From positions 4,712,001 through 4,776,000 of the forward strand of contig JAWZSP010000004.1 in assembly GCA_034401135.1 (NCBI GenBank): DNA of 64,000 nucleotides. The letters run 5' to 3'. Every line of letters begins with the position of its first letter. Within the stretch, counting starts at the first letter, position 1. Of the stretch, positions 1 to 56,572 are shown piece after piece. Both the position numbers and the translations under genes were made by a program. The stretch comes from Volutella citrinella. Its lineage: Eukaryota; Ascomycota; Sordariomycetes; Hypocreales; Nectriaceae. The notes under the pieces are model-generated. The model was given only the letters and a program-made list of their open reading frames with translations. It did not search any database and was not told the origin of the DNA.

Positions 1-21
1 TAACCATTAGATATGGAACAG

Positions 22-3000: not shown

Positions 3001-6000
3001 CATTGCGTATGGCCCTCGCTTTCGCTGTCTGGGGGATATGACGGCCGACCCCAGCCAATACAAAGCAAACGCTAGACTAAAGGAACTCCCAGTCGAGGGC
3101 GAATCACCGTACGCCGTCCACCCCACGACGATTGATGGGTGCCTGCATCTGGGTGCAGTGGCTGGCTGTCACGGAGTTGCAAGGAACCTGACGCGACTTG
3201 TGCTCCCACTCAGCATCACGCATCTAACAGTGAGGCCTGCTGGCCCTGAACTGGCGGCTGAGGTGACGCTGGATTCATCGACAGGTCTTGCAAGTCTCGT
3301 GGCGACTGCCGTTGGAAGTGATGCTGTTGTAGTCAGCTACGAGGGCGGCAAGGGAATCTCGCTTGACTTGGGTGACAGGCGCCAAGAGAGTGAGAACTGG
3401 CACTTGGCACACTTGAAATGGCGACCCGACATCTACTTCCAAGATCCTGCGAGTCTATTCCAGAGGGGCCCTTCCACGCGCAAGCCGGATGCGATTTTCA
3501 AACTCATGACCGGCCTGGGCATTCTGCAGACGCTCGAGGCCGTCGAGACACTGGAAACGCCGCCCACCGGTTACCTCGTGAAGTACCACGGCAGGCTGCA
3601 AAAGCAAAGGGACCTGATTGCTACCGGGAGCCTCGATGGCATCGACGCGGGGGCTAGAGCGTGGGTGTCGATGGACGTGGGTGCCCGGGACAGACTCCTG
3701 GACTCGCTGCAGACGCAGATGGAAGACCTGGGGACGCCCGACATTATCGGCTCTGCAAAGCTGGGGAGAACCATCTCGAGGCGGGAGAACGTGGAGAAGA
3801 TCTTCAAAGGCGAAATCAACCCCGTGGAGCTGTTCTTGGCCGATGATGGGCTCGCTCACCTCTACGGCTTCGGGAGTAACAGGCTGGACCCGAGCGCCTT
3901 CATCAAACTCAAGGCGCACTCGATCCCGACGCTTAAGATTCTCGAGGTCGGCGCGGGAACGGGCGGCATCACGGCGATACTCCTGAGATGGCTTGTGAAC
4001 AAGCAGGGCATCAGGACCTACTCCAACTACTGCTACACGGACGTTTCGTCTGGCTTCTTCGTGGCTGCCAAGGACAAGTTCAAGGAGTGGAGTGGGATCG
4101 AGTTCAAGGTTTTGGACATTGAAAAGGACCCGGCCGAGCAGGGCTTCAAGCTCGAGTCTTATGATCTAATTGTTGCCTCGAATGTGAGATGTGTCGCTGT
4201 CTGTTCCTTTGGGACGTGGTAGTGCTGACGACGATGCAGGTGCTTCACGCAACCACGTCGATACAGCAATCGTTGAAGCATGTACGCTCCCTCCTCCGGC
4301 CGGGGGGTTGCTTGTATCTCCATGAGCTGATTGACTGTGAGTCTCGCTAGTCCCACTAAACCAGCTCTTCATTTCTGACCTAACCCCTTCACGCAGCAAT
4401 GTTAACGCGCAGCGTCGACTACATCATGGTAGGTCACGCCAGAGTCCTGATTCCACTCGACTTGACATGTTGACACGTATATGCTTAGGGTGTTTTGCCT
4501 GGATGGTGGGTAGGCGAAGCCGATGGGCGCGAGGAAAGCCCTTACATCTCCCTCGAAAGATGGGATCAAGAACTTCAACAGGCTGGATTCTCGGGTCTCG
4601 ATTCCACCAACTACGACGATGATCCTCCGTATCACTTATGTGCGCAGATGACCAGTACGGCGTTGGACCCCACGCCAGAGTCTGTTGGGGACCGACGGGT
4701 CGTCTTGTTGTACAAGGACGCAAAGAGCGAGTTTGCCCTCGCCATTGCTCACGCCCTTGGGCAGCAGGGTGTCCCCGTCGGCTGGGTCGAGTTTAGTTGC
4801 CTAAACCAGCAAGATGACGCGGAGCACGTTATCTCCACCACTGAACTGGAGGCACCCTTCTTTGACAATATATCGGAGCACGACTACACGACCTTGCAAG
4901 ACTACCTGTCCAAGACGCAGGCGGGGACTCTCTGGCTCACGCGAGCCTCGCAGATGGGTTGCGTAGATCCCCGATACGCTCTCGCCCTTGGGTTTGCCCG
5001 GACGGCTCGAATAGAGCTGAACATTCCCTTTTGGACCGCTGAGATTGACGCATTGGGCCCTCTGTCACTTACAGCTGCTGTGAAACTGATCGAGAAGTTT
5101 GTAGGGCGAGAACCGGACAAGGAGATGGCAGACACGGAGTACGCGATTCACGAAGGCGTCATACACATAGGTCGTTTTAGCTGGATGCCCACGTCGGCAG
5201 AGCTGCAGCCCGTTCTCCAACAGGACACGGTCAAACAGATGACAATCGGCCAATTCGGTCTGCTTGACTCGCTGCACTGGGTCGAGCGTGACGCGGTGGC
5301 CCCGTTAGAGGATCAAGTCGAGGTTGAAATCGGCAGTGTTGGCCTTAACTTCAGGGTATGGATGCACAACCCCTGGCTACTCAACTCCAAGCTAGCTTAC
5401 GTGACAGGACATCATGGTCGCCATGGGCATTATTCAGGGGCTGCCAGACCATCTCGGCATGGAGGCATCGGGCGTCGTTACACGAGTGGGTGCCGGCATC
5501 ACGCACCTCAAGGTCGGTGACAATGTCATTACCGTCTTCTCCGGCTTTTTTTCTACTAGAAAGACGTTGCCAGGCAGATGTGTCTTCAAAATGCCGCCAA
5601 AGTTTTCACATGAAGAGGCAGCAACCCTACCGGTTGTTTATTCGACAGTCATACATGCCATGATGAATCTTGCACAAATGACAAAGAGCCAGGTGAGAGA
5701 TCTGGCTATTCCCCCAAACCGTAGACCTTTGACTGACACCTGGCAAGTCCATTCTCATCCACTCTGCTACCGGCGGCGTGGGCCAGGCGGCCTTGAATCT
5801 TTGCCGGATAATTGGCATTGAGGTAAGACGGAGCGCCCATCATTTTCCAATCTCGGTGAATTCTAATGCTGGAATTTCTTGGATGCAGGATATCTACGCG
5901 ACAGTCGGGAGCGATGAAAAGATCCAGCACCTCATTGACACCTTTGGCATTGCAAAGGAGAGAATCTTCCACTCGCGCAACGATAGCTTCCTTGACGACA

Positions 6001-7789
6001 TCATGCGCGCAACTCGAGGCCGAGGTGTCGACGTAGTCCTGAACTCCTTGTCCGGAGACCTGCTGCACGCCTCGTGGAAGTGCGTGGCCAAGTGCGGAAA
6101 GATGCTGGAGATTGGCAAGCGGGATATGCTTGAGCACGGCAAGCTGGCGCTCGACGGGTTTGAGAATAATCGAGTGTTTTACGGCATCGATTTGGAACGA
6201 CTGACTGTTGACCAACCCGAGGAACTAGAGAAGTACGCCCGCCCCCTTTGGCTTGTTGTGAAAGTCCGGAGACTGATTGTGTTGCAGACTAATCGGCCAG
6301 TTGACGGCCATCTCATCGAAATCGCCCATCACACCAATACGACCGATCCACACGTTCCCAGCACACAAAGTCAGTGAGGCGTTTCGATTTATGAAGAAGG
6401 GCCAGCACATTGGAAAGATCGTTATAAATATGCCCAAGGACAAGCAAGACATTCCATCCACCCGGGAGGAGAAACAAGCGCCGATATCCAGCACCGCCAC
6501 TTACTTGCTCATCGGCGGGCTGGGCGGGCTCGGCAGGGCTACAGCTTCGTGGCTCGTTGAGCAAGGTGCCAGGAGCCTCTGCTTCCTCTCGAGATCGGCC
6601 GGAAAGAGCGGAGAGCATGACGACTTTCTAGACGAGTTGAGAGTGCAAGGCTGTGCCGTGGTTGTTGTCGCAGGCAGCGTTGCCGAAATGGCCCACGTCA
6701 AGCGGGCCATTGACTCGTGTCCGACCCCCATTGCGGGCGTGATGCAGCTTTCCATGGTTCTACGGGCAAGTCAACGACTGCAAACAGATCTCTACTCAAG
6801 CTCCTATGGCTAACCAGTATCGACAGGACCGTGAAATGGCCAAGATGACCCATGAGGAGTGGAAGGCCGCCCAAGACCCAAAGGTGCAGGGCACTTGGAA
6901 CCTGCACAACGCGCTACTCGACACAAGACTCGACTTCTTTGTCCTCATATCCTCGTTGTCCGGTAGCTTTGGCCATCCGGGCCAGGCAAACTATGCGTCG
7001 GCAAACACGTTTCTCGACGCGTTTGTGCAGTATCGTCATGGCCTGGGCCTCGCCTGTTCGACCATCGACCTGGGCGGGATGGAGGACATTGGCTATCTCA
7101 GCGACAAACCGGTCAAACTGCAGCAATACCGCACGAATGGCCTCTTTATGCTGCGAGAGAGCAACCTTGTCCAGGGGATTCGCATCGCCATTGCCCGCTC
7201 GCAGCCACCAGCTGGACCAGGGTCGGACAAGTGGCACGACGGCGCCTACGTTAACAAGTCCCAGTTCGCGCTGGGCCTGCGGTCCGTCAAGGCCATGTCA
7301 GATCCTATGAACCGACTACTCTTCAAGCACGATCCCCGCCTGGGCGTCTACCACAACATGGACGCGCGGGAGGACTCGAGCGACGAAGCCAGGGACCAAG
7401 GACTCCGCGAGTTCCTGACCCGCGTCGAGGCCGATCCTCTGCTGCTCAACGAGCCCGAGATGCTGGAGAAGGTGTCCTGGGAGATTGGGCGCACCCTTTT
7501 TATCTTCATGCTGCTGCCGGAGGAGGACCTGGACATTGACATGACGCTCGAGTCGGTGGGCATCGATTCGTTGGTGAGCGTCGAGATTCGGAACTGGTGG
7601 CGCAAGAGCTTGCGGACCAACATTACCGTCTTGGAGATTAAGCAGGCGGGCACGATAAAGGGGCTGGGGAAGCTGGCGATATCGTCTCTGCGAGAAAAGT
7701 ATGGCGTCGGGGCTGATGGCGAGGATGGGAGTGGGAGTGATTGGGATGTGATTGAAGCGCCAAAGGAAAACGGGCATGTGGACAGTTGA
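22..7789 (+). CDS. Highly reducing type I polyketide synthase, 5' end outside window
   Basis: Iterative PKS building a reduced, C-methylated polyketide chain in the cytosol. Exons: 22-535, 590-883, 937-1429, 1496-1951, 2013-4183, 4240-4336, 4397-4428, 4489-5355, 5408-5692, 5748-5822, 5889-6232, 6288-6765, 6827-7789; phases agree and give about 2355 residues. Order: KS (active-site TACSSS near residue 7, ECHGTGT, KPNVGHGEG), AT (GHSSGE near 480), DH (H in GEHQVGG near 788, partner D in TIDGCLH), C-methyltransferase (LEVGAGTGG near 1227), ER (HSATGGVG near 1745), KR (IGGLGGLG near 1950, LSGSFGHPGQANYASAN), ACP (GIDSLVS near 2281). No release domain follows the ACP. All catalytic motifs are intact. 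An acceptor at 21 would restore the usual GPSMT lead-in to the KS cysteine. The residue before TAC is Arg, where Asp is usual. The product cannot be predicted, and no tailoring genes are obvious to the right. Confidence 0.95.
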
Positions 7790-29683: not shown

Positions 29684-31150
29684 CTAACCGACAACCTTTG
29701 GAGACGCATGCCTAAACACGTTGTTGGCGTCGTACTTGGCCTTGAGACTCACCAGCGTCTCGAGATGCCTGCCGTAGACCTTACCCAGATCGGCCTCGTC
29801 AGCAAGCAGCGAAATATAGGCACTGTCCAGAATGTTGGCCCCGTTTCGCTCCCGTAACTCCCTCAGCAGCGTCTGGCCCCATTCCAGCGTCGCGGGTTTC
29901 TGTGCTTCGTCGGCCGTCGTCGACACAACTTCAATCATTACATGCGGCTCCCTCGCGCCAAACACCGAACGCCGATTCTCCTTGGGTGACCGGAGGGCAT
30001 GCACCGAAATCATGGAGCCACTGGGAACCAAGTCGTTGTACTTGGCCAGCACACTAGCAGCCTCTTTCGTCCATTGCTTGATGCTGACGGTGAAGCAACG
30101 CCCATGCACGCCGTACTGCACCAGTTTCTCGTTGTCTCGGGCATACTTGGCCGGCGTCTTGGCCTCCGTTATGTTCATGATGCAGGTCCCCAGCGCGGCA
30201 ATCTTTTTGATCCACTGATGGCCCTGCTCGTGGTCATCAGAGACCCAAGTCACGATGGTGGTGAGACACCTTCCAAGTCCAGGCAACTCCATGCCAATGG
30301 GCTGGACTTGCAGCGGATCCGGGAGGACGAGGCCCTGAAGACCCTCGATTAGACCCGTCCAGGCCGATTGCAGGTCCGACGAGTCGAAGACAAGCGTCGC
30401 CGACAGAAGCTATAGAACTGTGCTTAGAACGGGGCCATAATGCATACTGCCACAGGGAACCTACCTCTTTGAGCGGATAGACCTTGACGGTCAGCTCGAC
30501 GATTGCGCCAAAGATGGGCCCGGCTCCACGGATGCCCTCCAGCAGGTCCTCGTCGGCATCTACAATGTCGCCCTGGCCGTTGACCAGCCGGGCAGCAACG
30601 ATTTGGTCCGCCCCAAGGCCGTACAGCGTCGAAAAGGGCCCGTAGCCGCCGAGGGTGCTCCACCCGACGTAGCCGACAGAGCCAACGGATCCACTGCGAG
30701 TCGCTCTCAGCACACATCACACATCACACATGGGGCTTAAATGTTCCTCCAGGACACTCACAATGGAGTTACTAGGCCGTGCTCGCCGAGTGTCTCAACC
30801 AGCCCGCTGACGAGGATGCCGCCACCGACCCTGGCCGTCGTCTTGTCCGGGCTGACGTCGACGAAGCAGATATCCCGCATGTCAATCGTCAGCGCGTCGT
30901 GGACCAGCGACTGTCCCACGCAATTGTGTCCCCCAGTCCGGATGCTGAACTCGGCGCCGTGCTCGAGACACGCCCGGATGAGAGCCTGGACGTGCTCGGG
31001 GGTCCGCGGGCGTGCAATGGCCCAAGGCCGGGATGACGTCACAATGTATGTCTTCACAAGCCCCTCATATTCGGCACCGTCGGGCGTGTGTACCGGGATG
31101 TCGGGATGACTGGTGCGAAGGGCGGAGAGCGTCTTGGATGATGCAGACAT
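29684..31150 (-). CDS. FAD-linked oxidoreductase, berberine-bridge-enzyme-like
   Basis: Flavoprotein oxidising alcohol, amine or lactone-type carbons with O2. Minus-strand exons 31150-30762, 30693-30465, 30409-29684, in phase, 447 residues. FAD_binding_4 region: SSRPWAIARPRTPEHVQALIRACLEHG, then SIRTGGHNCVG with the His expected to carry FAD covalently, DMRDICFVDVSPDKTTARVGGG, and VGWSTLGGYGPFSTLYGLGADQIVAARLV. The BBE C-terminal signature LKAKYDANNVFRHA is present. No signal peptide with the chosen start, so intracellular, unlike many plant relatives. An upstream in-frame Met at 31309 would add a poorly conserved leader. First gene of the putative catabolic cluster, head-to-tail with the CMD-like gene. 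No copy of the shared CGG-N7-CCG site was seen before it. Confidence 0.9.
30711..30731. repeat. 7-bp tandem repeat within an intron
   Basis: Three perfect copies of CACACAT inside intron 1 of the FAD oxidoreductase gene (30694-30761). Probably a microsatellite without coding effect. Confidence 0.7.
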
Positions 31151-31622
31151 TTTGGAGCGGTTTGAAGGGAGTCGAAGAAGCAACTGCTGACCGGATTGCG
31201 ACTTGAATGTTATTGCGGAGAGATGTCGGAGAGATATCCCGTGTAGATAGCCGGTGAGCCCAATGCCGTACTGGACCTGTAAGCACTTGCATCCCACGAG
31301 ACAATCCAATCCTAGAAACCTTACCTAAGCCTCTCCACAGTCAGCGCGACTTCATAACAACGGAATCATATGCCACTATTCTCAAACGCCTTTCGTTGCT
31401 AGTGTCTCGCATCTTGCCTCCGAATCTGGAAGTCCTCAGCCTTCGCACTGGCGAACGTCCTCATGTCCCCGCTACATGAAGAGTTATGCACTACCCTACA
31501 CCGAAAATATGTCCGGACGCCTTGAGAGAATCAAGAGATACTTGATGCATTCTGGGTTCCACCTGCCATCCCTCCTTTTAACCCCCTTTGCATCCAAACT
31601 CATGTGGCTTGGTGTAGCAGAT
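31151..31622. other. Intergenic, promoter of the FAD oxidoreductase
   Basis: 472 bp between two leftward genes. A direct CGG-N8-CGG lies near 31216-31229, unlike the inverted site found elsewhere in the cluster. Nothing else seen. Confidence 0.4.
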
Positions 31623-32315
31623 TTACGGGGTGGGCACTATAGGGATCGTTTTGTTCTTCTCGCCGACTACGCTCAACGTCAGTCTGCCATCCAAAGACTG
31701 GATCAATAAAAAGATTCTCCCGGAACTGCTTACCATCTAGGGCGACAAGAAACCGGCTCACGCAATTGTAACATGCCACCTATGCCTATGAGCTTTGTTT
31801 CTAGTCAAGCAAGGACGAGTGCGTACCGTGGACACAATCTCGACAATCTCCTTGTCGCTAAACAGAGACTTGAGCCAAGCAAAAGTCTCATCCTTGACTT
31901 GGACGCTTCTCGTCATTTCATCGGCCATGACGGCCACGGCCCATCGACGGTCGTTCAACCCCGATGGTTGTTCGCTACGAAGCAGCTCCTTGTCTGCCAT
32001 GATTTCACGCATCGAGTCTGCGGAAACGCCGCCTGCAACAGCCAGAGGCGCATGGTGCATCCATTCATACCAAGCGCGATTGACCAGCGCGATGCGGCAA
32101 ATGGCGAGCTCGCGCAAGTCATCCGGCAGGGAAGTCCGCGTGCGGACGGCGCCGACAAAGGTGTTCCAGCCCTCGGCGATGGGTGGAGAATGTAGAAGTG
32201 CCAGGTCGAGGGGCTGTAGAGGGCGAGGGTTGCGACGGGCCTCTATCGCAGCGACAATGGCAGCTTCCTCGGCGTTTGCCATAGGAGGAGGGTTTGCGAC
32301 GTAGGGGACTCTCAT
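31623..32315 (-). CDS. Carboxymuconolactone-decarboxylase-like (AhpD-fold) protein
   Basis: Minus-strand exons 32315-31827, 31779-31734, 31666-31623, in phase, 192 residues. The CMD region reads LPDDLRELAICRIALVNRAWYEWMHHAPLA, the conserved helix pair with Glu and His of the AhpD fold. After two introns the C-terminus is VACYNCVSRFLVALDVGEKNKTIPIV, the usual CMD end. Without splicing the frame runs into an unrelated tail, so the two small 3' exons matter. Members include 4-carboxymuconolactone decarboxylase and peroxidase-like or gamma-lactone-acting enzymes. Next to a dienelactone hydrolase and SDR, a role in lactone or quinone breakdown is inferred. Two CGG-N7-CCG sites lie 163-191 bp before the start. 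Confidence 0.9.
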
Positions 32316-32987
32316 GTTGATGTGATGGGTGTTGACGGGTAGATGGGGATGGATTAAATTGAATCAATTATTTTGACCTGGATGCAACCTAATAACCACC
32401 AGTATTTATTCAACTCGCAGTTCGTTGGCCTGGATTGAACAGGCATAATTACCATCTCCAATACGTCTTGATGCTCACGGACCATTTCCGCGGACATTTT
32501 CCGCGGAGGCCACGGACGGCATCTTGGCGCTAACCGGATGGGACGACGGGCTGGCAGTGTTTGTCTCACGAAGCCAGCTGCACAGCGCGTCCTTCCTTGG
32601 CCGTGGACTTTTTGTGTATCTGTCGAGATTATCGCCATCAGCATGGGCAAGCCTACAAGGACTTGATCCACCAACAGTCGCTATCCCCGATCCGATGACG
32701 CAGGCTGATCAATTGAGGGCATCTCGAAACATTATTCGTCAGTGGGGATGGCTCTACAAGGTCGTCTCATGCCACCACATCCCGATGCGACTCGTTTGAG
32801 TTTGGACCACGAAAGCCCTATGACCCTTGGTTCCTTGACTGGCTTCTGCAAGCCATACCCCGGATTCCCCGCCTGAACCGACGAACCAGACCGTGCGGGG
32901 GAAGACTTCTCATCTCCTGTGCAACTCCTCATCCCCAGACTCCTCACCAACCGATAGTCCATCAGCCGACGTCATCATCTTTCCACG
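32316..32987. other. Divergent promoter region with the putative cluster operator
   Basis: Lies between the leftward CMD-like gene and the rightward regulator. No gene. Contains a tandem pair of CGG-N7-CCG inverted sites at 32478-32506 (separate entry). Confidence 0.6.
32478..32506. promoter_or_regulatory. Tandem CGG-N7-CCG sites, putative Zn2Cys6 operator
   Basis: Two abutting inverted sites: CGG-ACCATTT-CCG (32478-32490) and CGG-ACATTTT-CCG (32491-32503), the second inside CCGCGG-N7-CCGCGG (32488-32506). They lie 163-191 bp upstream of the CMD-like start and about 480-510 bp upstream of the regulator. The same spacing and a similar core recur before the SDR and the hydrolase/transporter pair. 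Zn2Cys6 dimers typically bind inverted CGG triplets at fixed spacing. Confidence 0.6.
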
Positions 32988-35436
32988 ATGGACCATTTCG
33001 ACCGTCGACCAGCAGACAGCCCCCAACCAACCGACATGGCAGACACCACAGCAGCTTCACGGGCTAAGCGCTCGCGCAGCCATCGCAAGTTTCGCGGCTT
33101 GACATGTGCCAACTGTCGTGTCAGAAAGGTACGACCACTACTCACATTGCCCCATCAACTTCCACTGACATCGTTTCTTTCAAAGGTACGATGCGAAGGG
33201 AGCCAGCCGACTTGCAAGACGTGCGAGGTGTACCACGTAGACTGCCACTACGACAAGCCGCCTCCGCTGTCCCAGATTGTTGCCATGGCGAGAAAGCTCC
33301 AGGAGGCCGAGAACACCATCGAACGCCTGCAACAAGGTGCTTCCATCACAAATCCGAGCCAGGGGCAGGCCTCTCCAGCAGAAGATTGCATCCAGGCCGG
33401 TGATAACTCGATACGCCCTCCCTCTGGACCAGCAGTCTCAGCCCCGGCCCCTGATGCCACGACAACTGTTGCTCTGCGAACTGCAACATCCCGATCCGAC
33501 CTCATGATACCATCGCCTTCCCGGCAGACAACATTCTCGCCAGTAGCAGCCTCTGGAGGCCACGCCGCCACAGTCGCACAACCTGACGAGTCCCTAACAA
33601 ACGAACTCAGCGTCGACGAGCACGGCAAGATCTGCTACTATGGCCCGACCTCAGCGGTGCACCAGCCCCTGGGTCTGGATTCCCCGTCGGCCAAGTCATC
33701 GAGTGGCACTAGTCACCGCTCCCAAAAGGACGGGTTGCGCTCCTACCTGACATCGCACGCCCGTGAGTCGGCCGTCTGGGAGGAGTTTGCCCTCGGCAAC
33801 GCCGCCCTGCAGACGGGCTTGTCTCGAGACGTTATGGCGAGGCTGCTGCATCTGCACTGGACCTGGGTGGCGCCCATGTTTATGTGGGTGTACCGGCCAG
33901 CCTTTATCCGTGAGTAGACTAACTCTTCGTTTGGATTGTAACTACTAATGATGGCTGATTCCTTCAATAGGCGACATGACCACCGGCGGCCGATACTACT
34001 CCGAATTCCTCCTCCTCGTGCTCTGCGTGCACGCGTCAAAGTACCAGGACGGCCACCACACCAACCTGCTCTCCGCCCGGGTGCGTTGGCTGCTCGGAGA
34101 CGCCATCCAGCAGCCCAGCTCAGTGCCGACCATCCAGGCGCTGCTGCAGCTGAGTGCCCGGGAGCTTGCGCAGGGATCCATCTCCCAGGCTTGGCTGTAC
34201 AGCGGCATGGCCTTTAGGATGGCGGCTGACCTGGGCCTTCAGCACACCGGGCCCGACATTGCCAGTCTGAAGGGCCTTACCCCTATTGACTTGGAGATTC
34301 GAACGCGGCTCTTCTGGAGCTGCTATTTCTGGGACAAGTATGTTTCGCATCGCATCCCTTGATAGGAAAAAAATACTGACTTGTCGCGCTAGGGCCATCA
34401 GTCTCTACACTGGGAGGCTGCCGGCAGTGACCGAGTTGCCCCAGGGTCCCATCAACTTCTGTATGCTCTCCCCGTCTTTCATCTGTTCAGTCATCGATTA
34501 CTAACCAGAGTCTTGTTGTAGTGGACGATTCGGCCGAATATGAGATCTGGTCTCCGTACCACGAAGATTCTTCGCCCCTGACCAAGCTGCCCCCGGGACA
34601 ATACCCCTCGATGAAGAGCCACGCCGTCTCCTGTTTCGAAAACTCATGCAAGCTGTCCGTCATCATCAACGACATTATTGTACAGCTGTACTCGAGACGG
34701 AGTAACCATGTCACGGAAGCATCGCTTAATGGCATTAAGAGTCGCTTGGATGCCTGGCGAGAGCAGTCCCCAGCCCACCTGCGATACGATCCCGATTACC
34801 TACCGGCCATTTGTCCACCGCCACATATTATATCACAAAAGTATGCCACTTGGTCTGATCCTTCACAACTGCAGGCCATCATTTGCTGACAAATCTGCCA
34901 ATAGCATCTTGTACTTTACGACGATCATCCTCGCGCACCGACCGTTCTGGGCAGCCCCCGAATACTACAGGGTATGCATCAACGCAGCTCTCAGCATCGA
35001 GAAGCTCCTGCTCCTGCTCGAGTCTACGTTCGGATTTGAAAACATCACTTATTTAATGGGGTACTGCATCTATACGGGTGCCTCTGCCATCCTGGAAGAC
35101 GCCAAGAATAGCCAAGGCGCCGACCACCCAACCATGAAAACATTCCTCAGAGCCCTGAATGGGGGCCTGAAAAAGTGTTCACTGCTCGAGAGGAGTCTAC
35201 ACATCATTATCAAGGGCCTGAAACGGAGTGTGGTCCAACGCCCGGCGCCATATCAGGTCGGCGTGGTTGAGAACCCACCGGCAGCTCCCACAACCAGCTA
35301 CATCCCCGCGTTTCCATACTTTGATCCAGATAGCCCGAATGAGTTTGACATGGATGCCTACCTCAACAGCATGAGCATGGACACCATGGCAATCCTCGAC
35401 TGTTATCCCGAGCTGCAGATGGATGACAGGTTGTAA
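32988..35436 (+). CDS. NirA-like Zn2Cys6 transcription factor, putative cluster regulator
   Basis: Exons 32988-33128, 33186-33909, 33971-34337, 34393-34460, 34522-34840, 34905-35436, in phase, 716 residues. The zinc cluster spans intron 1: TCANCRVRK joined to VRCEGSQPTCKTCEVYHVDC gives CX2CX6CX6CX2CX6C. Intron 1 is 57 nt without a stop, so unspliced reading hides it and breaks the cluster with 19 foreign residues. A coiled-coil-like stretch follows (MARKLQEAENTIERLQQ). The Fungal_trans domain shows WEEFALGNAALQTGLSRDVM, LHLHWTWVAPMFMWVYRPAF, RLFWSCYFWDKAISLYTGRLP and ILYFTTIILAHRPFW. The acidic C-terminus (DPDSPNEFDMDAYLNSMSMD) looks like an activation region. Its central place suggests it controls the flanking genes. 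Confidence 0.92.
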
Positions 35437-35532
35437 AAGGCACTGACTGCTTGGATTGACATTCAATGTATTTTTAATTTATATTGAAATCTATCTATCA
35501 TTCATTTTCACTTTTAACCAGTCCCTGGCAAC

Positions 35533-36698
35533 CTAATTTTTGACACCGGTAGTCTCCTCGGCTAGCGTATCAGCCTTGAGAGCTGGTCTATCGGCCTTGC
35601 CGGCGGTCGTCTGCAATATCACATTAGCTTAGAACTGTATACGTGCACACACCCTTTGAATGGGCATCTCTGGTGCTTCTGCTGTCTTGGGAAATGGGAC
35701 AACTTACACCTCCATCAACAGGCATGATAAGGCCAGTAATCCAGCCAGCTTCCTTTGAGGCAAGGAACAAGATGGCTGCACATCTGTCAGCAACAGCCTA
35801 CTTCAACGAATCAGGTTGACATACCGAATCCCACATCCCAGCCAGTTCCCTCCTTCTTCATGAGGTTTTGGTTGATTCGGGCCTGCCGCATCTCGTCCGT
35901 CATACCCCGACCTCGGGTCATGGGAGTAAAGACCATTCCCGGGGCCACGCAGTTGACGCGAATGTTCTCGCGGCCGTGGTGGGCAGCCATGGCTCGCGTC
36001 ATCTGGATAATGGCTCCCTTTGTTGTGGGGTACAGCAAGCTTGGGTTTCCACCAAGTACTGCCTCCAGTCATTAGTGTGCAAGTTTGGTAGGCTATGCAA
36101 TTGAGCAACGGAACTTACAGCCGCTCACAGACGACATGTTGATGATGGAGCCGCGGCCCTGCTTCCTCATCTCGGGAATGGCGTGGCGGCTCATCATCAC
36201 CATGCTGGTGACATTAATTTTGAAGTCTCGCTCCCAAGCGTCGAGGTTGATGGTGGTAGCGTCACCCATGGCACCGCCGACACCAACTGACTGCTGGTTA
36301 GCGCATTTTCAAGGCACCTTCCATGCCTCACGTACCAATATTGACCAAGATGTGCAGAGATCCGAACATCTCGACAGTTTTGGCCACTGCGTTCTGGCAT
36401 GAAGCCTCGTCGGTGACGTCTGCTTGGATAACCTCCGAGATTCCTCCCTCTAGGTCAATCATGCGCTTCGTCTCCTTGGCCCAGTCCACGTTGAAGTCAA
36501 CCAGCGCCACCTTGGCTCCGTGGCGGGCGAGAAGAATAGCAGCAGCTCGGCCATTGCCAATCTCACCTTGTCGACGAATTAGCTCCATGCGACAAACAGG
36601 CCCGAGTGACAGTGAGTGTACATACCGTCCATGCGAGACCCAGCCCCCGTCACAATGGCGACGTCGCCGGTGAAATCGAATCCGCGTGCCGGTGCCAT
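35533..36698 (-). CDS. Short-chain dehydrogenase/reductase (classical SDR)
   Basis: NAD(P)-dependent oxidoreductase. Minus-strand exons 36698-36626, 36566-36336, 36286-36119, 36058-35825, 35775-35708, 35610-35533, in phase, 283 residues. Rossmann start DFTGDVAIVTGAGS, followed by a longer loop RMDGEIGNGRAAA in place of the usual GIGRA; then ALVDFN (acidic residue favouring NAD), the LVNI strand end, INMSSVSG with catalytic Ser, YPTTK with catalytic Tyr and Lys, NCVAPGMVFTPM, and GLIMPVDGG. The C-terminal exon adds about 25 residues. Substrate is unknown. It sits between the regulator and the dienelactone hydrolase, with a CGG-N7-CCG site 227-245 bp before its start. Confidence 0.92.
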
Positions 36699-37442
36699 GA
36701 TTGAGGATTGGACTAAGGCGGCTTTGACTAAAAGAAATGGAAAATTGATGTAACTGATTGTGACGATACAATGGTAATGTCAGAATGCAAGCTACACAGT
36801 GAGTTCAAAGGCGATGCGGCCTGTATTCTTCCTGGTATATTAGACGGGTTTTAATCTAGCATCCATTAAACCTAAACTGGGCTTGAGTTGGGAAATTCGG
36901 GGTCCAGGTAGCTGGCAATTATGGCCGCGGAGATTCGCCGCGGCGCCGTCGGGGCACTAGCCAACTTGTGGAGGGCCACGAAGTACATCCAATCGCCACG
37001 ATCCATGGTCCGTGGGGATGCTATTGAGAGTCTAATTGCCGTCAGCTCGGCAAGACATCCGTGGAGAAATGGAGGGGGGCGAGAATGGGGTTGGGAATGG
37101 AAATGGGGGAGATGCGGGCTCCACGTGGACTTCGGGATGCACCATCGTCTTGTGCGAGTAGAACGAGCGGAATAAAATCGCACCAGAGGAGCTCCAGAAA
37201 TGGCCCCTTGGCTCAACTTGACCAAGGTAATCATGAGTACGCATTGTGATTTACGTCAGGTGTGGTTGATGAGCAGACCATTCGATCCGCATTTTTGACA
37301 CGAGCGTATGAGAATTAGCCCAAAACTACTACTAACTAATACTAACACACACCTAGCCTTAGCTAAGGCGGAATGCGACTAGATAATTAACGAGAAAGAT
37401 CTATCTATTTCTACCAATTGTCTATATAGAATTACAATGGCG
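36699..37442. other. Intergenic, promoter of the SDR
   Basis: No gene. Contains one CGG-N7-CCG site within CCGCGG-N7-CCGCGG at 36925-36943; the part next to 37442 is the 3' flank of the hydrolase. Confidence 0.5.
36925..36943. promoter_or_regulatory. CGG-N7-CCG site upstream of the SDR
   Basis: CCGCGG-AGATTCG-CCGCGG, the same framework and spacing as at 32488-32506, 227-245 bp upstream of the SDR start. Confidence 0.55.
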
Positions 37443-38437
37443 CTATTTGGACATCCAGTAATCGAACCAACCTACGATTCCGTCAAGACTCTGCTCCTTG
37501 ACCCATCCTGCCTCCTCGTTAGCAACATATCTGAAGACAAATGGCAAATGACTCACGTTCATAGGGGTCGTTCTGGTTGCCTCGGAGTGCAAAGCCGTGC
37601 TCTACACCGGAAAAGACCTGGTAGTGAAATGTCTTGCCTTCCGACTGTAGAATGTCCAGTGCCCGGCGTCTGGAGGGCACGTCAAAGGTATGGTCCACCT
37701 CTGAACACGAGAGGAATAGAGGTTCTAGCCCGGGATAGTTAGCCATGCGCCCTGAATACAGGCCGACTCAGTGCAAGATTTGCATGAGAAAAGATGCCTG
37801 CGCTTACTCTTCAAGTCGAAAAAGTGATGCTCCTTGAGGAACGCCGGGTGGGCAAAGGCGCCAACTGTGACGGTGTCGCCGGCCAGCTCGTTGCAGACGT
37901 ATGGTGCGCCAAAGCAGTATCCCACGCATGCAAACTTGGTATTGCTGGTGCCATATTGTTTCTTGACGGCCTGGACCCATTTGGGCACTGCCGCATCGGC
38001 AAACGTCGTGTGCTTGATCTTCCAGGCCTCGTAGTCAAAGTCGGGGTTCTGCGCATCGTGGCGGTTCTTTCTGTGCTTCCACACGGGGTCCTGTTGACTA
38101 ATTGTTAGTCAAACCGACTCAATGGCAGACAGGTGAACATGCTTACGCCACGGAAGTAGTCCAGCCCCAGCACCAAGTAGCCCGCGTCGGCGAACGCATC
38201 CATCACCAGGAAGCCGTTTGGGAACATGCCCCAAACATCTGGAAAGTATAAGAGGATGTTCCCATTGGCTTTGTCGGCTGGCGGCTTGGAGATGTATGTT
38301 TCGACGTCTGCAATCGTCTCCCAGGTGCCTCGTGACTCCCCTTCGTGAATGGTGCCTTTCAGACAGCAGGCTCCGCTGGGCTTGGCCAGGTACCGAGACT
38401 CTTGAGTCTGGGGCTCTTGTGATACGGATTGTCCCAT
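37443..38437 (-). CDS. Dienelactone hydrolase family protein
   Basis: Alpha/beta hydrolase opening cyclic lactones (dienelactone-type) in the cytosol. Minus-strand exons 38437-38147, 38090-37808, 37751-37557, 37507-37443, in phase, 277 residues. Nucleophile Cys in VGYCFGAPYV, acid Asp in SCSEVDHTFD, base His in GVEHGFALRG. Fungal DLH features: CCLKGTIHEGESRGTW near the N-terminus, LYFPDVWGMFPNGFLVMDAFADAGY, LGLDYFRGDPVWKHR and the C-terminal WFDYWMSK reached through a 49-nt intron. The start at 38437 (MGQSVSQEP) is chosen over an upstream Met at 38491 as nearer the family N-terminus. The 21-bp palindrome 247-267 bp upstream is shared with the divergent transporter. Confidence 0.92.
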
Positions 38438-38986
38438 TATTCCTTGGTAACTACGATGTACGGCGGAGAAGAAGGGATGCGTAGGCTCCAACGATGGAGG
38501 AGGGGGAGAGATTCATTTGAGTAGTCGGGACACAAGTGACGACTTGCCCGCCTCGGGGACATACCCCACGATAGACACGGCATGGTGGATCAGCGGGGAA
38601 GGTCCAGGTAGAGTCGCCACGCGTTGTGTGGTGTAGATGTCATGGTCATCATGCGCGCTCGGGTGTTGACACTTCGCAGAGTTTCCACGGACATTGTCCG
38701 TGGACCAATGCCTTCGGGTCCCAACGTTGCTAACCTCGTTAGTGCAGAACCAACGGCCTGAGCGGCAACCGAGTTTGCAATCTGCGACTGAGGTCGAGAC
38801 TTGTGTGGGGCCCCGCAAAACAAGACAACTCTCCCCAGAGAATGACCTGACTCGATCTCCGAACCCCCATCAATCTCATCAATTTATTAATACCCCAGAA
38901 TGACTGTCCTGTAGTTTGAGAAGGCGACCATCATCCATTCCTCCTCTACTCCTTGCTACTCGGCCTTCTCTTCTCCAACCACAACG
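38438..38986. other. Divergent promoter of hydrolase and transporter
   Basis: No gene. Contains the 21-bp palindrome at 38684-38704, roughly centred between the two start codons. Confidence 0.6.
38684..38704. promoter_or_regulatory. 21-bp perfect palindrome with CGG-N7-CCG
   Basis: Two 10-base arms (TCCACGGACA and its complement) around a single T. The centre is CGG-ACATTGT-CCG (38688-38700), one base different in the N7 from the site at 32491-32503. Placed 247 bp before the hydrolase start and 283 bp before the transporter start, so it can serve both. Confidence 0.65.
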
Positions 38987-48958: not shown

Positions 48959-50893
48959 TTAGGCGATGCTCGACTCGGCACCAGACTTCTCGCTGGAACC
49001 CTCCAAGAAGGCGAGTCTCTCGGCTTCAGTAAAGTTTCCAAGGAACTCGTCAAATGATGGGGGCTGGTATGACTTGCGAGCCCCGACGAACCACATGACT
49101 ACGCAGAGGAGTGAAAATATAGCCACCAGCAAGATGCTGTAGTTGAAGCTGCTGGTCGTAATGGGATACACAGGGGGGAACTAGCAGTCAGGTCAGCCAG
49201 GCACACATGTGGCAAGAAAGAAACTAACGAACCATAACAAGAACAATGACTGCTGATGTATAGACGACTGAGATGAGGCAGATGGGATACCCGAGCTTCC
49301 CAAGGCTGAAAGGCGTCTTCTTTAACTGTTTGCGACCAAAGATGAGCATCATTAGTGCGGGAGAAGCTGCATCGCAGGTCAGTATAGAGTTTCGCTCGTC
49401 CGGATTATATAAACTGACCGTAGCTGGGCAAGCATGAAGGCAGCCTCGGTGCCCAGGATAGCGCTGAAGGCCTGGGTTGAGAATAAGTATACCAAGCCGA
49501 CCAAGACAGTGAGGACAAGGCAGAGGTGCAGCGACCACGTCGGGACATGATATTTAGGTGAGATTTTGGTGAGGCTAGGAATGTTAGTTGACTTGGAGAG
49601 CGCTGGTGGGTTCGCCGAGGAAACTTACTTCTCCTTGTAGAAGAAACCGCCATCTCGTGCCAGAGAAAAGCCCTGGCGGGAAGCCGATGTCATGCACCCA
49701 GTCAATGCTGAGAAGAAGTTGACTAGCAGCATGAGGTTGAATATAATGGCAGCTGTTTTGCTGTTGAGTGCCAGTCTAATCAGCTCGACAATCGGCACGC
49801 TGTTTGCCAGATATGTGTTAGCCAGGTTCGACAATGCATCTCTCGATTGTGACAAATGCACATACCCAGTGGCTGTGTTGATGATTGCACTCATATCCTT
49901 GGCACAGAAGCCAATCGTGAGAATCCAGATGACACCGACTGTTATCTGGGTCGCCATGATGATATACAAGGTCCGGGGGATGGCCATGGTTGGTCGAGGG
50001 ATCTCTTTAGCTAAGTGGCATACAGCATCCAAACTGACCCAGATGACCATGCTATTATACAGACCAATCGCAACGGCCATTGATGCTGCGGCAAAGCCGG
50101 TTTCGTTGGTAACTGTGACAAATACGTCCGTGGCCGATGCCTTGGGGGCCCGTGCAAGGAGAGTGATGGTGAATCCGACGAATCCGAGCATGCTCACAAT
50201 GCCTATTGAAGTGGTTTAGTACATCATCGGGTTTCTGCCTCGTCTGGCACTCCACTTACAGCCAGTATTCTCCATGATGCGAAAACCGCCGAGGAGAAAG
50301 ACATTGACAACCCAGGAAACGAGCGTCCATGCGACGAAGACCAAGAAGTATTGCCACCGTCCGCTGACGACATAGTCGGGTTTGCATAGGATAACGAGCG
50401 AGAATGTAAGTCCGGTTTGGATTGCGGCACAGGCAGCGATGGTCAAGACCCAGCCCAGGTAGTTGAACCAGCCGACCGGGTAACCAACCAATCTGCGATA
50501 TTTTTCAGGGCAAAGGAAGGTCGAGAAATGGTAGGCTCCGCCGGCCGTAGGAAAGAGAGCGGCACACTCTGCGAGAACACTCATAGTGCATAGGGTGCAC
50601 GCGGCGGCCCCAAGACTGTAATGAATAAGTTAGCGTCTTGACAAACAAGTTGCAAGGGCACCAAAAACATACAATCCGTAGAAGATGGTTGCGATGCCAC
50701 CAGCAGAAGCACCGATGACAAAGAGGTACGAAACACCACCAAAGAGGTTGATGACGTTCCAGGCGACACACACAACAGCCCAGAAGCTCATGTGTCGCTT
50801 GAGCTGGCCCTCTTGCACCAGCACTTCGCCTTGCACTTCTTGCGAAGCAGCACAGGACAATGTGTTCTCGATCGATGGTCGTTTCTCGCGCAT
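48959..50893 (-). CDS. APC-superfamily amino-acid/GABA-type permease, one junction out of phase
   Basis: Twelve-helix H+-coupled amine or amino-acid importer. Minus-strand exons 50893-50673, 50615-50260, 50202-49629, 49574-49419, 49366-49229, 49179-48959. Seen: KRHMSFWAVVCVAWNVINLFGG, a CTMSVLAECAALFPTAGGAYHF stretch (the consensus SMAELASMYPTSGGQYHW region), VGWFNYLGWVLTIAA, SLDAVCHLAKEIPRPTMAIPR (the EEI-NP-type loop), LTGCMTSASRQGFSLARDGGFF and ISPKYHVPTWSLHL, all as in fungal GABA/choline-type permeases. The splice from 49419 to 49366 leaves two bases on each side, one too many for the frame, although both flanking exons are clearly right. Either a one-base change or an unusual splice site is present. 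It neighbours a regulator, an SDR and an aminotransferase. Confidence 0.82.
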
Positions 50894-51728: not shown

Positions 51729-52625
51729 TCAAACCATCACAGCACCACCGTTCGCGCAAGTGGTTGAGCCGGTAACCCATCTAGATCCCTCTTCACAAAG
51801 GAAGGCCACAACCTGGGCAATGTCGTCAATCTCACCAACACGAGGCGCAGCCGGGACAGCCTTGATGTAATCCTCACATTCCTTCTGGCTTTCTTCGGGC
51901 ATGGCACTGTCAAAATTTGTCAATAATTGGTCAATCATTTCATGCGCGAGTTGGACGTACTGCCACATCTCGGTGCCGGTGGGACCAGGGTTGACACAGT
52001 TGACTGTCACCCCGTACTTGTGGCCAAGCTCAAGAGCCCATGTCCTGGTAATGTTCTCCAGGCAAGCCTTTGAAGCACCATACATGGTGTGCATCTTCCA
52101 AGCTAGAGAGAAATATGTGTCAGTATGTTTGTTCCCAAGAAAAGAAGCGGGCCAGTCATGAGAGGGCATACCTTCTCTGGCGCAGACGCTACTCATATTG
52201 ACAATGCGGCCCCCTCTCCTTAGGAATGGCAGGCACTCCTTGACGAGAAAGATGGGGAATCGGACATTTGTCTGCATGACTCTGTCAAAGTGATCATACG
52301 TCACATCTTCCAAGTAGAATTCCTCGCTGATACCAGCATTGTTGACGATGATGTCGATACCACCATCAAATGCCTTTCGAGCAGCCTCGACCACCAAAGC
52401 CGGTGACTCGGGGGCCCTACAGTCGGCTTGGATTGAAGATCCCCTGCCACCAGACGTTTCAAATTCTTGAATAAGTTGCTCGGCGATTTTCGCGGAAGAG
52501 GAGGAGTTGTGTGTAATCAGCACAGAAGCGCCACGCTTCGCGAGCTCGGAAGCGATCCCACGCCCGATGCCCCTGGTTCCCCCAGTGACGATGGCGACTT
52601 TGCTTTTCAAAGATTTGGAAGACAT
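51729..52625 (-). CDS. Short-chain dehydrogenase/reductase (3-oxoacyl-ACP-reductase-like)
   Basis: Minus-strand exons 52625-52172 and 52102-51729, 275 residues. The 69-nt intron (52171-52103) has no stop and a length divisible by three, so unspliced reading adds 23 foreign residues (MPSHDWPASFLGNKHTDTYF region). Splicing restores REAWKMHTMYGASKA. SDR marks: SKVAIVTGGTRGIGRGIA, IIVNNAGISE, RIVNMSSVCA with catalytic Ser, YGASK with Tyr and Lys, VNCVNPGPTGTEM, and the C-terminal VAFLCEEGSRWVTGSTTCANGG. The coenzyme site TGGTRGIG is canonical. It is divergent from the aminotransferase across a 644-bp region, so co-regulation is likely. Confidence 0.92.
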   Translation of the reverse strand: MSSKSLKSKVAIVTGGTRGIGRGIASELAKRGASVLITHNSSSSAKIAEQLIQEFETSGGRGSSIQADCRAPESPALVVEAARKAFDGGIDIIVNNAGISEEFYLEDVTYDHFDRVMQTNVRFPIFLVKECLPFLRRGGRIVNMSSVCAREGMPSHDWPASFLGNKHTDTYFSLAWKMHTMYGASKACLENITRTWALELGHKYGVTVNCVNPGPTGTEMWQYVQLAHEMIDQLLTNFDSAMPEESQKECEDYIKAVPAAPRVGEIDDIAQVVAFLCEEGSRWVTGSTTCANGGAVMV

Positions 52626-53269
52626 GTTTGGGTTGAGGTAGCGGAAATGACGAAGTCTTGAGAGGCGCCGAGATGGTCTTTGGGACGGAAATAACAATAG
52701 GGATATGAGAATGAGAAAAGCTGCCAGCCGAGCGAAGATGAAAGGACAAGAGACCTACTCGCGAGCGTAAAAGACGAGATCCATTGGGTCTGATCACTTA
52801 AGTGCCGTACAATTCAATATTGCTGGGGCGGAAGCGGGACAGTCCCAAACAGGTAAATTTTAGCACAAACGCCTACCAATAAAACCCCCCTGGCTATCCC
52901 GCAGGTGCAATCCGAATCAGCAATAAGACGAAGCCACGGTCATACGATGATAAGATTGATACCAGTCCCTGGCCTTGTCAGACTACGGCCGACCAATGGC
53001 GTCGATAAAGGCCGCGCATGAATATTTCCCAATTTGGTAAATAGATACACTAAAAGCTGCCAATCAAACATTTCAACACTATTCCTCCGTGTTCGAGGTT
53101 CGTCTGCTGGGAGAGGTAGGTATTGATGTGTCAGCCGACTTCAAGAGGTACTAAAGGACCTCTTCTATCATCTCTTTGCACAGATGTAACTCTCTCAGTT
53201 GTGTGAATCGTCTCTTCATCTCGGTTATTCGTTTGCTGGATCAGGGAACACGCCTCCAATATCAACATC
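52626..53269. promoter_or_regulatory. Divergent promoter between SDR and aminotransferase
   Basis: 644 bp, no gene. Contains a 10-bp palindrome CACTTAAGTG near 52796 and two GATA-type sites (GATAAG 52949-52954, GATAAA about 53004), consistent with nitrogen control of both flanking genes but not diagnostic. Confidence 0.4.
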
Positions 53270-54643
53270 ATGACGGACAACACATCATTGACCTTGTCGG
53301 AAAAGACAATGGAGCTATGGAACCTAGAAAACCAGTACTGCTCCGGTGGATTCGAGCCGTCGCCCGTCTTTTTCGACCGAGCCGATGGTATCTACTTGTG
53401 GGTAAGTTACCGGCGGATCGACTTGGGACAGCCGAGCACACACTGAACAGCCTCCAACTCGTAGGACTGCGATGGCAAGAAGTACCTTGACTTCATCGGC
53501 ATGTTCAGTGCCACCAATTTGGGCCATGGACACCCATATGTCAAGAAGAAGATGATTGAGCAGCTGGAAAAGGCCCACATGCTCAACATTGCAGGACACT
53601 ATGCTGGATGGGGTCCCTTTGGCAAGATGATGTGCACCAAATTTGGATACGACAAGATTGCCGCAGCTACCTCTGGCACTGAGGCAGCAGATGTGGCTTG
53701 CAAGATTGCTCGAAAGTATGGATTGAGTCGTCGAAACATCCCTGCGGACAAGCTCAAGATCCTCGGCGTTGGCTCTTCATACCACGGTCTGGGCATGGGC
53801 GTCTGGGGTTTGATGGACCGTTCGAAGCAGAGAGATGCGTACGGGCTCGCTGGTATTGCGGTGCTCAACTTCAACCCCACGACCGGCAAGACTCTCGGAT
53901 ACCTCGACCTTGACGCCATGCGTTCTTGTCTCGCCGAACATCATGAAACCGTGGCTGCGGTTATCATGGAGTGCCTACACGGAACTTCCAGCTCATCTGA
54001 CGATGAGATCCGGTACGCTCGTGGTGTATACGATCTCTGCCGAGAGTTTGGAGTCCTTTTCATTGCCGATGAAGTCCGTCAGGGTGCTGCAAAGACTGGA
54101 AAGTGGCTTCCGTATTATCACCTCGGAGAGGATGTCAAGCCCGACATTGTCACAATGGGCAAGTCAATCACCAGCGGCTGGTACCCTCAGACGTACATCC
54201 TCGGCACAGAAGACGTCATGTCCGTCGTGGACGCCAACGAGACTGGTTTCACCTTTAGCCACACGCCCCCAGCACTGGCTGCTACGACTGCTACGATTGA
54301 AGTCATCGACAACGACAACCTAGTGGAGCGTTCCAGGGAAATTGGCGAGAAGTGGAGAGCTATTACCGCCTCCTGGAACCATCCCAAGATTGACTACGTC
54401 TCTAGCATCGGAGCCGACTCCAACATTGTTTTTAAGGAGCTAATGGGTCAACGAGTGGCTGCGCTCTGTATGCACAAGGGGCTTTTTGTTGCGTCGACCC
54501 AGAGCACGAAGAGGATTCGCATCAGTTTCCCGTTGATTATCACGGACAGAGAAATTGAGCAGGGCGCTGCGATCTTGAAGGAAGTCCTTGACACTGAGGA
54601 CACCTATCAGACCATCCCTGGAGAGTTTTTCAATCAGTTTTAG
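53270..54643 (+). CDS. Class III PLP-dependent aminotransferase, ornithine-aminotransferase-like
   Basis: Transfers a terminal amino group to an oxo acid. Exons 53270-53401 and 53465-54643, in phase, 436 residues. N-terminus [37 protein letters not shown] and SATNLGHGHPYVKKKMIEQL match the OAT/acetylornithine group. PLP site: TSGTEAADVACKIARKYG, VIMECLHG, LFIADEVRQG with the conserved Asp, and the Schiff-base Lys in TMGKSITSGWYP; HTPPALAATTA supplies phosphate contacts. It lacks a clear mitochondrial leader, so cytosolic. Divergent from an SDR and close to an amino-acid permease: together they could import and deaminate an omega-amino compound, the SDR acting on the resulting aldehyde or ketone. 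The substrate is inferred only. Confidence 0.92.
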
Positions 54644-54991: not shown

Positions 54992-56572
54992 CTACTCTTG
55001 CAACTGCTCCGTCGTGTCCAAAATCTCTTCCGCAGGCAAAGGGAGACTTCGGTCAATGTTGACTATCAGACACTGGTTCACCTTGTCAATAAGCACCCTC
55101 GAGTGCGCATAGCCTGTCCGGAGCGTCGTTCCAATTATCCCAACCATCTCAACAAGGGTATCCAGCGGCCCAACCTTCATAGTTGACTTCTGATCAGCAG
55201 CAGGCGCTAATAGTAGTAGATCTGCGAGGGAACACCCGATATCAAAGATCTTCTCCAAAATACCCACTCCGTTGGCTTCAAACGCCTCTGCTGGGAGGAG
55301 CCGACAGATGAGGACAACGTCGCGGGCAATTGACGCAGGGTACTGCAGGGACATGCAATCATCGCCTGTCGTGAGGTTGAGAAGCTTCTTCGAAACACAA
55401 TGCTTCCACACAATGACTTTCAGCCACTGCCTGGATATAAGGAGATCCGCTTGTTGCACCGGAGAGTAGTTGGAGACGCTCGGCAGAGCGTACTTTAAAA
55501 CCTCTTGCAGCTTCAAAAGGTTTTCTGATTCAACACTCTCCGACAGTAGCAAACCAGCAGAGTTCCAAGAGGCGATGAAATTGGCATCAAAGTGTCCAAA
55601 TAGTGTGATGAGGTCAAGGAACCCGGGCAGCACTGCTGCATCCAAGGACTCTGGGTTCACCTGGGGCAGCGCCAGCGTGATCTGTAGCGTCAATGGTCGG
55701 TATCTCTGAAGTGCGTACGCGCGCTCGGTAATGAACAAGACCCAGAACATGCGCCGGCCGTACTCCCGCAAGACTGGATCGTCAATGTTTCTGTAAGTGC
55801 CTTCCTCGTGGAGACGTAAACCTTGCAGCATCGTTATGGATTCTCGGAGATAGAACCAGGTAGCCTTGTCTTTGTCCATGCAGAAGTAGGTTGCAAATAT
55901 GAGAAAAGAGGTTTGGACATGAATGAGGGACTGCCTTTCAGCCATGTTGCAGTAACGCCTAGCGCGGAGAGTTTCCGAGATGAGAAAGTCTGTTGGGGGC
56001 ATCGCAATCGCGGGTTGAATGGGTGAGGTTGGAGCTGGTTGATGCGTGAGAAACTCTGGCGAGAGTGACACCAGCGCACAGCATGCTGATACAAGTGCGT
56101 ATTTCTCTGGATCGGTAATGTCATTCAGGCTTTCTTGTACCGTCATCCGATGCAAAATCGGAGTGACGGGGTATTTGTGCGCGAACCAAGCGTCTACTGC
56201 CTGTTTCATGATATCAACTGATAGCCTCAACGAAGGTTGAAAGACATTGCGCGATGAATCCTGGGCCGAGGCTGGGGCACTGCTAATGAACCAACGTGGC
56301 TCACCCACTTCCCCAACGACCGCCGAATGCGAAAAGGGCGAGATGGTAGTCGCGGATCTCTTCGCAATTGTGGCGAGCCTTGGCCGTCGGGGTCCTCCCT
56401 TGGGGCCTGTCTTCTTGTGTACCGCAAGAAATGTGCATGTTGCTGCCGTGTCTCTGCAGTTCTTGCATGGCTTGAGCCCATCGCAGCGGACCTTGCGCAA
56501 GTGACAGGAATCACATGCTTGGCGCACCTTGCAGGTATTCCTCGGGGTGCCGGTCGAAACACGATTGGACAT
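54992..56572 (-). CDS. Zn2Cys6 transcription factor of the sugar-utilisation cluster
   Basis: Single exon, 526 residues. Zinc cluster QACDSCHLRKVRCDGLKPCKNCRDTAATC (CX2CX6CX6CX2CX6C here), followed by a basic run KKTGPKGGPRRPR of the kind seen in fungal sucrose/maltose regulators (SUC1/MAL-activator-like). The Fungal_trans region shows AVDAWFAHKYPVTPILHRM, LIHVQTSFLIFATYFCMDKDKATWFYLRESITMLQGLRLH and YGRRMFWVLFITERAYALQR. The C-terminus ends in an acidic stretch (LPLPAEEILDTTEQL). Its neighbours, a sugar transporter, GH32 and GH13, point to control of sucrose or alpha-glucoside use. Assignment to that role rests on context. Confidence 0.9.
   Translation of the reverse strand: MSNRVSTGTPRNTCKVRQACDSCHLRKVRCDGLKPCKNCRDTAATCTFLAVHKKTGPKGGPRRPRLATIAKRSATTISPFSHSAVVGEVGEPRWFISSAPASAQDSSRNVFQPSLRLSVDIMKQAVDAWFAHKYPVTPILHRMTVQESLNDITDPEKYALVSACCALVSLSPEFLTHQPAPTSPIQPAIAMPPTDFLISETLRARRYCNMAERQSLIHVQTSFLIFATYFCMDKDKATWFYLRESITMLQGLRLHEEGTYRNIDDPVLREYGRRMFWVLFITERAYALQRYRPLTLQITLALPQVNPESLDAAVLPGFLDLITLFGHFDANFIASWNSAGLLLSESVESENLLKLQEVLKYALPSVSNYSPVQQADLLISRQWLKVIVWKHCVSKKLLNLTTGDDCMSLQYPASIARDVVLICRLLPAEAFEANGVGILEKIFDIGCSLADLLLLAPAADQKSTMKVGPLDTLVEMVGIIGTTLRTGYAHSRVLIDKVNQCLIVNIDRSLPLPAEEILDTTEQLQE

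Follow-up and report, generated by a model that had tools for sequence, protein, structure and literature searches.

A composite 21-bp near-palindrome shared by three promoters of a Volutella citrinella gene cluster is a candidate operator of the cluster's Zn2Cys6 regulator

Results

A shared element in three promoters

The stretch analysed here (the window) covers 64 kb of the Volutella citrinella genome (C4:4712001-4776000; 45.1 Mb in 26 contigs) and carries a cluster of a CMD-family gene, a Zn2Cys6 regulator, a short-chain dehydrogenase (SDR) gene, a dienelactone-hydrolase-family (DLH) gene and an MFS transporter gene. Three promoters of this cluster have a sequence element in common, and it probably serves as operator for the regulator encoded in the cluster (probability about 0.7, judged from the DNA and protein sequences). 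The well-supported candidate unit is a 19-21 bp near-palindrome, CCRCGGA-N5-TCCGYGG, longer than the CGG-N7-CCG dyad at its centre. It is built from the 8-bp boxes TCCRCGGA and TCCGYGGA at a 13-bp step, and this build is found in all three promoters. The initial annotation had proposed four CGG-N7-CCG sites as the regulator's operator. One element is indeed common to the three promoters, but the motif as described there is too short, and three of the sites are strong with the first (32478) much weaker. The elements and the single boxes around them are as follows.

32474..32494, no strand assigned: weak composite element CTCACGGA-CCATT-TCCGCGGA; holds CGGN7CCG 32478-32490; one mismatch to YCCRCGGAN5TCCGYGGR
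32487..32507, no strand assigned: strong composite element TCCGCGGA-CATTT-TCCGCGGA; holds CGGN7CCG 32491-32503
36924..36944, no strand assigned: strong composite element GCCGCGGA-GATTC-GCCGCGGC, SDR promoter
38684..38704, no strand assigned: strong composite element TCCACGGA-CATTG-TCCGTGGA, between DLH and MFS
32509..32517, plus strand: single half-box GCCACGGAC, adjoining the array; CCRCGGAC at 32510
32600..32607, plus strand: single box GCCGTGGA, one mismatch
37008..37016, minus strand: single half-box GTCCGTGGG, SDR promoter region; GTCCGYGG at 37008, box from 37009
37058..37065, plus strand: single box TCCGTGGA, SDR promoter region

In the divergent CMD/regulator promoter two elements share their middle box, CTCACGGA-CCATT-TCCGCGGA-CATTT-TCCGCGGA, giving three boxes at 13-bp steps. 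The element between DLH and MFS is a perfect palindrome about ATT, with 10/10 pairs. All four CGG-N7-CCG sites of the initial annotation are exact: CGGACCATTTCCG at 32478, CGGACATTTTCCG at 32491, CGGAGATTCGCCG at 36928 and CGGACATTGTCCG at 38688. The ATT core described for them occurs in each N7 stretch but is displaced by one base in the first site. Two sites lie between CMD and the regulator (32316-32987, 672 bp), one upstream of SDR (36699-37439, 741 bp) and one between DLH and MFS (38438-38986, 549 bp). From site to start codon there are 162 and 175 bases for CMD, 484 for the regulator, 229 for SDR, 250 for DLH and 286 for MFS; the CMD, SDR and DLH distances lie in the range originally given, but the MFS distance had been put at 283 bp.

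Symmetry and rarity of the element

The palindromic extension, not the number of sites, is decisive for a real element. Symmetric pairing was scored at 7 further positions for each CGGN7CCG (three inside, four outside), with no flanking letters assumed. The cluster sites score 2, 6, 6 and 7 out of 7 free pairs, so that in three of the four 9-10 of 10 positions pair around the centre. No such pairing is seen in 38 comparison sites with CGGN7CCG, of which 8 come from elsewhere in the window and 30 from six further genome stretches; all have at most 5/7 free pairs (Fisher P=0.00035). These six stretches are not a random sample; they were chosen for holding or adjoining element-like places, a choice that should render the control more stringent rather than less. 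With the seed frequency of the whole genome, 0.0007 strong palindromes are expected in the 1,962 bp of the three promoters, and finding three has P of about 5e-11, assuming 0.25 per pair.

The consensus fitted to these sites, CCRCGGASATTNKCCGYGG, is matched in full at the three strong cluster sites alone; in a search that passes over very common words, the 45.1 Mb contain no other place with 0-1 mismatches. Because CCRCGGASATTNKCCGYGG was fitted to the sites, this rarity shows how specific the consensus is but cannot serve as independent evidence. Of the four occurrences of CCRCGGAN5TCCGYGG in the genome, two fall in the cluster.

The boxes themselves are also concentrated in the three promoters, which hold 5 of the 8 exact boxes of the window and 10 of its 60 six-letter cores CCRCGG/CCGYGG (1.8 expected). 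For the half-box CCRCGGAC the genome-wide frequency predicts 0.12 copies there and 5 are present (P=1.6e-7, uncorrected for the choice of word). The top 8-mer in an unbiased word ranking is CCACGGAC, with P=3.4e-6, borderline after correction for about 33,000 possible words.

The count of CGG-N7-CCG on which the initial annotation had relied is accurate in its parts. Its estimate of one site per 4 kb agrees with the genome density of 1 per 3,976 bp (11,342 in 45,099,969 bases), and the predicted 0.5 site in the three promoters is 0.49 when computed from that density. Four sites against 0.49 give P=0.0017, an excess that does not suffice alone after multiple testing. Over the window there is no enrichment: its 12 sites, including these four, compare with 19.1 expected, and at least 12 occur in 96 of 100 shuffles. 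Among inverted-repeat spacings of 0-24, only 7 reaches at least three copies in the promoters (four sites, three promoters).

An unbiased dyad count covered all trinucleotide pairs at gaps 0-20 (43,680 dyads). Its top dyad in the three promoters is AAT-N12-TTA, with 7 copies, compared with 19 in a background of 122 kb; this lead may reflect A+T-rich promoters compared with mostly coding background.

A compositional accident in promoters singled out by a reader is a highly improbable account of these data. The P of 0.0017 and the dyad rank given below would suit it, as would the A+T-richness of the top four dyads, which may be a background mismatch. CGGAN5TCCG occurs at 602 places in the genome, three of them in the cluster; we do not use it as proof, since triples within 6.3 kb are expected by chance about twice per genome. 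Such an accident is hard to reconcile with extension in 3/4 cluster sites against 0/38 others, with the confinement of CCRCGGASATTNKCCGYGG at 0-1 mismatch to the cluster and with the half-box enrichment.

Several observations nevertheless weigh against a cluster-wide operator of the proposed form. The site count is not decisive alone, and CGGN7CCG is only rank 75 among the dyads common to all three promoters (P=0.004). Three copies of the direct repeat CGGN6CGG likewise reach all of these promoters. Apart from CGGA/TCCG, site 32478 is degenerate (2/7 free pairs). The rarity of CCRCGGASATTNKCCGYGG is partly circular, and at up to 3 mismatches its 236 forward and 201 reverse matches show no clear excess over a backward control (209 and 203). 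The backward control of CCRCGGAN5TCCGYGG still has 2 places, compared with 4 for the motif itself, and a looser search, with 118 matches against 204 in the control, gives no clear excess either. The gap of 5 has no strong genome-wide preference: CCRCGGA/TCCGYGG pairs with gaps 0-30 occupy 31 distinct places, 4 with gap 5 and 4 with gap 18. The region upstream of the neighbouring FAD/BBE-type oxidase gene (31161-31560) contains no box at up to one mismatch. Finally, the regulator starts 484 bp from the array, which makes autoregulation less sure than control of CMD.

The 8-mer TCCGYGGA is frequent genome-wide (1,165 forward, 1,105 reverse) and says little alone. Other places at up to one mismatch from the 21-mer lie inside open frames on contigs 2, 8 and 9 (685, 118-200 and up to 1,009 codons) and, on contig 5, in no open frame of at least 100 codons; two overlapping places on contig 6 are an intergenic triple 13-bp repeat.

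The binding unit

The geometry may also be read differently, in a way compatible with an operator of the regulator. The unit would then be the single 8-bp box (TCCGCGGA, TCCRCGGA or TCCGYGGA), with one dimer over the abutting CCG/CGG, and CGG-N7-CCG would result from two boxes spaced 13 bp for cooperative binding. We consider this possible, with the odds somewhat against it. Complete or one-off boxes also stand alone at 32509, 32600, 37009 and 37058, and several relatives of the regulator are named nit-4 or nirA by their sources. Two boxes on the minus strand, 32501-32508 and 36925-36932, match the NirA consensus CTCCGHGG given in the available part of PMC5348485, and the accessible text of PMC5539612 gives TCCGCGGA and TCCGTGGA as consensus PDREs of the yeast PDR5 promoter. 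However, the 13-bp step repeats in three promoters and independent boxes would not need it, and the window holds no excess of CTCCGHGG (8 vs 8.0 expected). In some copies the outer halves have decayed to CCA or TCA, while the inner CGG/CCG is always intact, a comparison that is biased because the sites were chosen by CGGN7CCG. The constancy of the step speaks for the entire 21-mer as the unit.

A combination of the two geometries is conceivable, though rather unlikely. Here self-sufficient everted boxes of PDRE/NIT4 type, set 13 bp apart, would also form CGG-N7-CCG as a nested palindrome on which two dimers cooperate; this operator type would be kept with the regulator across ascomycetes and also be used at an array on contig 6. 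If this were true, one zinc-cluster protein would combine everted and inverted repeats.

Genes of the cluster

The gene models were spliced by hand.

31600..32315, minus strand: CMD-family (AhpD-like) gene, two exons, 222 aa; PF02627
32988..35436, plus strand: cluster regulator, Zn2Cys6 + Fungal_trans, six exons, 716 aa; PF00172, PF04082
35533..36698, minus strand: SDR gene, six exons, 283 aa; PF13561/PF00106
37443..38437, minus strand: DLH gene, four exons, 277 aa; PF01738
38987..41150, plus strand: MFS transporter gene, several introns, end approximate; PF07690 on exon pieces joined by eye
29684..31150, minus strand: FAD/BBE-type oxidase gene, possible cluster member; PF01565/PF08031

The MFS gene starts with the ATG at 38987. 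Relatives of the BBE-type oxidase in PDB include 6-hydroxy-D-nicotine oxidase (2bvf), and PDB sequence searches at the set cut-offs gave no relative of CMD or DLH. An aromatic or lactone substrate for the cluster is a guess from family names. No paper on dienelactone hydrolase with fungal clusters was found in the literature searched.

Elsewhere in the window, a second Zn2Cys6 gene (54992-56572), with a CGGN7CCG inside it at 55965, adjoins a class-III aminotransferase frame (53501-54643); near it, by eye, are an SDR-like frame (51729-52697) and a permease-like frame (49625-50197). Polyketide-synthase-like frames, also recognized by eye, occupy the left end of the window (1-7789). An Rfam scan of the window gave no match at gathering cut-offs.

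The regulator and its relatives

The spliced regulator carries a canonical six-cysteine zinc cluster. Its six best relatives (120 of 328 matches listed; identity scored only for candidates sharing most words) are 68-72% identical and belong to Dactylonectria and Fusarium. The zinc cluster and the PPPLSQ-type linker after it are nearly constant in the closest relatives (cluster readable in 70 of the 120 listed), so that the predicted 21-bp element is testable in any Fusarium genome. Relatives by sequence with solved structures include GAL4, LAC9, PUT3 and PPR1, and among the matches listed some bear nit-4 or nirA names given by their sources. No description of the regulator was found in the literature searched.

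In Purpureocillium takamizusanense (JDV02_005663 and JDV02_005665) and in Monosporascus (DL765_004079 and DL765_004077), the locus tags of the regulator and DLH genes differ by two. Equal lengths of the longest contig, which point to a single contig for both genes but say nothing of their distance, suggest the same linkage in Clonostachys rosea, C. chloroleuca, Aspergillus calidoustus, Apiospora kogelbergensis, Aureobasidium melanogenum and Xylariales sp. AK1849, and a linkage of the regulator with CMD in Dactylonectria macrodidyma and Fusarium sporotrichioides. SDR is fused to DLH in three Colletotrichum records. With this linkage and these fusions in other fungi, regulator-SDR-DLH looks like an old unit, which supports, without proving, the assignment of the shared element to the regulator. 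Other homologue records join the regulator to part of an amidohydrolase (Pseudogymnoascus) or of a lactonase-type protein (Colletotrichum karsti); these fusions are probably merged neighbours and hint at an aromatic or lactone pathway.

Discussion

Proposed regulation

We propose that the regulator encoded at 32988-35436 would bind as a dimer, or as two dimers, to the 21-bp element in each promoter. It would meet a single element in the SDR and DLH/MFS promoters and the three-box array in the divergent CMD/regulator promoter. Presumably triggered by a small aromatic or lactone-type substrate, it would act as an activator rather than a repressor, switching on CMD, SDR, DLH and MFS jointly and feeding back on its own gene. 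To judge from the placement of the array, the regulator perhaps controls its own gene. The element would define the cluster borders as CMD to MFS, which leaves membership of the oxidase doubtful.

Alternatively, the element may be real and be read by another Zn2Cys6 protein of drug-response or NirA type, the local regulator using a different site. We regard this as unlikely. The genome does encode further regulators related to the one in the cluster (34 matches, counting the cluster gene's own exons), and several yeast zinc-cluster proteins read PDRE-type boxes (Pdr1 and Pdr3, with overlapping Stb5, Pdr8 and Yrr1, according to the part of PMC5539612 available). A second array with the same box and the same 13-bp step, TCCGCGGA-CGGTA-TCCACGGA-CGGTA-TCCGCGGA, lies outside the cluster at C6:338263-338296. 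Its three boxes precede an alpha/beta-hydrolase gene by about 310 bp, with a small open reading frame for an Hce2 domain on the other side; the array may be a further target, or a minisatellite that arose by chance. Against a global binder, CCRCGGASATTNKCCGYGG at 0-1 mismatch is confined to three cluster places, which a pathway-specific binder fits better, and the AcuK/AcuM-type repeat CCGN7CCG has 23 matches in the window and none in the three promoters.

Elsewhere in the genome, CCGCGGA/TCCGCGG pairs are found at C2:4680237-4680254 and C2:4682289-4682324, with gaps of 4 and 22 and about 2 kb apart. They are possibly a target of another zinc-cluster regulator.

Comparison with known systems

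The cluster element and its putative regulator resemble the GAL4 class in plan. As in the operators of GAL4, PPR1 and PUT3, inverted CGG/CCG triplets stand at a fixed spacing in the promoters of one cluster, and the regulator has a zinc cluster followed by a linker and is related in sequence to GAL4, LAC9, PUT3 and PPR1. The operator spacings are 11 for GAL4, 10 for PUT3 and 6 for PPR1. Unlike these, the spacing here is 7 and long common flanks give an 8-bp arm.

NIT4 binds TCCGCGGA, although no paper stating this was found in the literature searched. The box core TCCGYGG and the nit-4/nirA names of some relatives recall NirA/NIT4. The NirA site is given as CTCCGHGG and called non-palindromic in the portion of PMC5348485 available. 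Two boxes within the elements match it, unlike the remaining boxes, which have no leading C; its window count is that of chance, and no nitrate genes were recognized among the cluster's genes by family assignment.

Five cluster boxes are PDREs of Pdr1/Pdr3 by their letters on either strand (TCCGCGGA, TCCGTGGA or the reverse complement, at 32487, 32500, 37058, 38684 and 38697; PDRE letters from the accessible part of PMC5539612). In contrast to those sites, the boxes here are paired 13 bp apart and the cluster looks catabolic.

AcuK/AcuM share the seven-base spacer. Their site is CCGN7CCG in the text of PMC11373862 available, a direct repeat and not an inverted one, and with 0 of its 23 window matches in the three promoters AcuK/AcuM are ruled out as the binder. 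Among the matches listed from the literature searched, CGGN7CCG itself was not found as a motif and only this site turned up. If the proposed operator is correct, a widely distributed fungal regulator would gain a concrete DNA target. The proposed switch is of an ordinary fungal kind, with a slightly unusual nested build.

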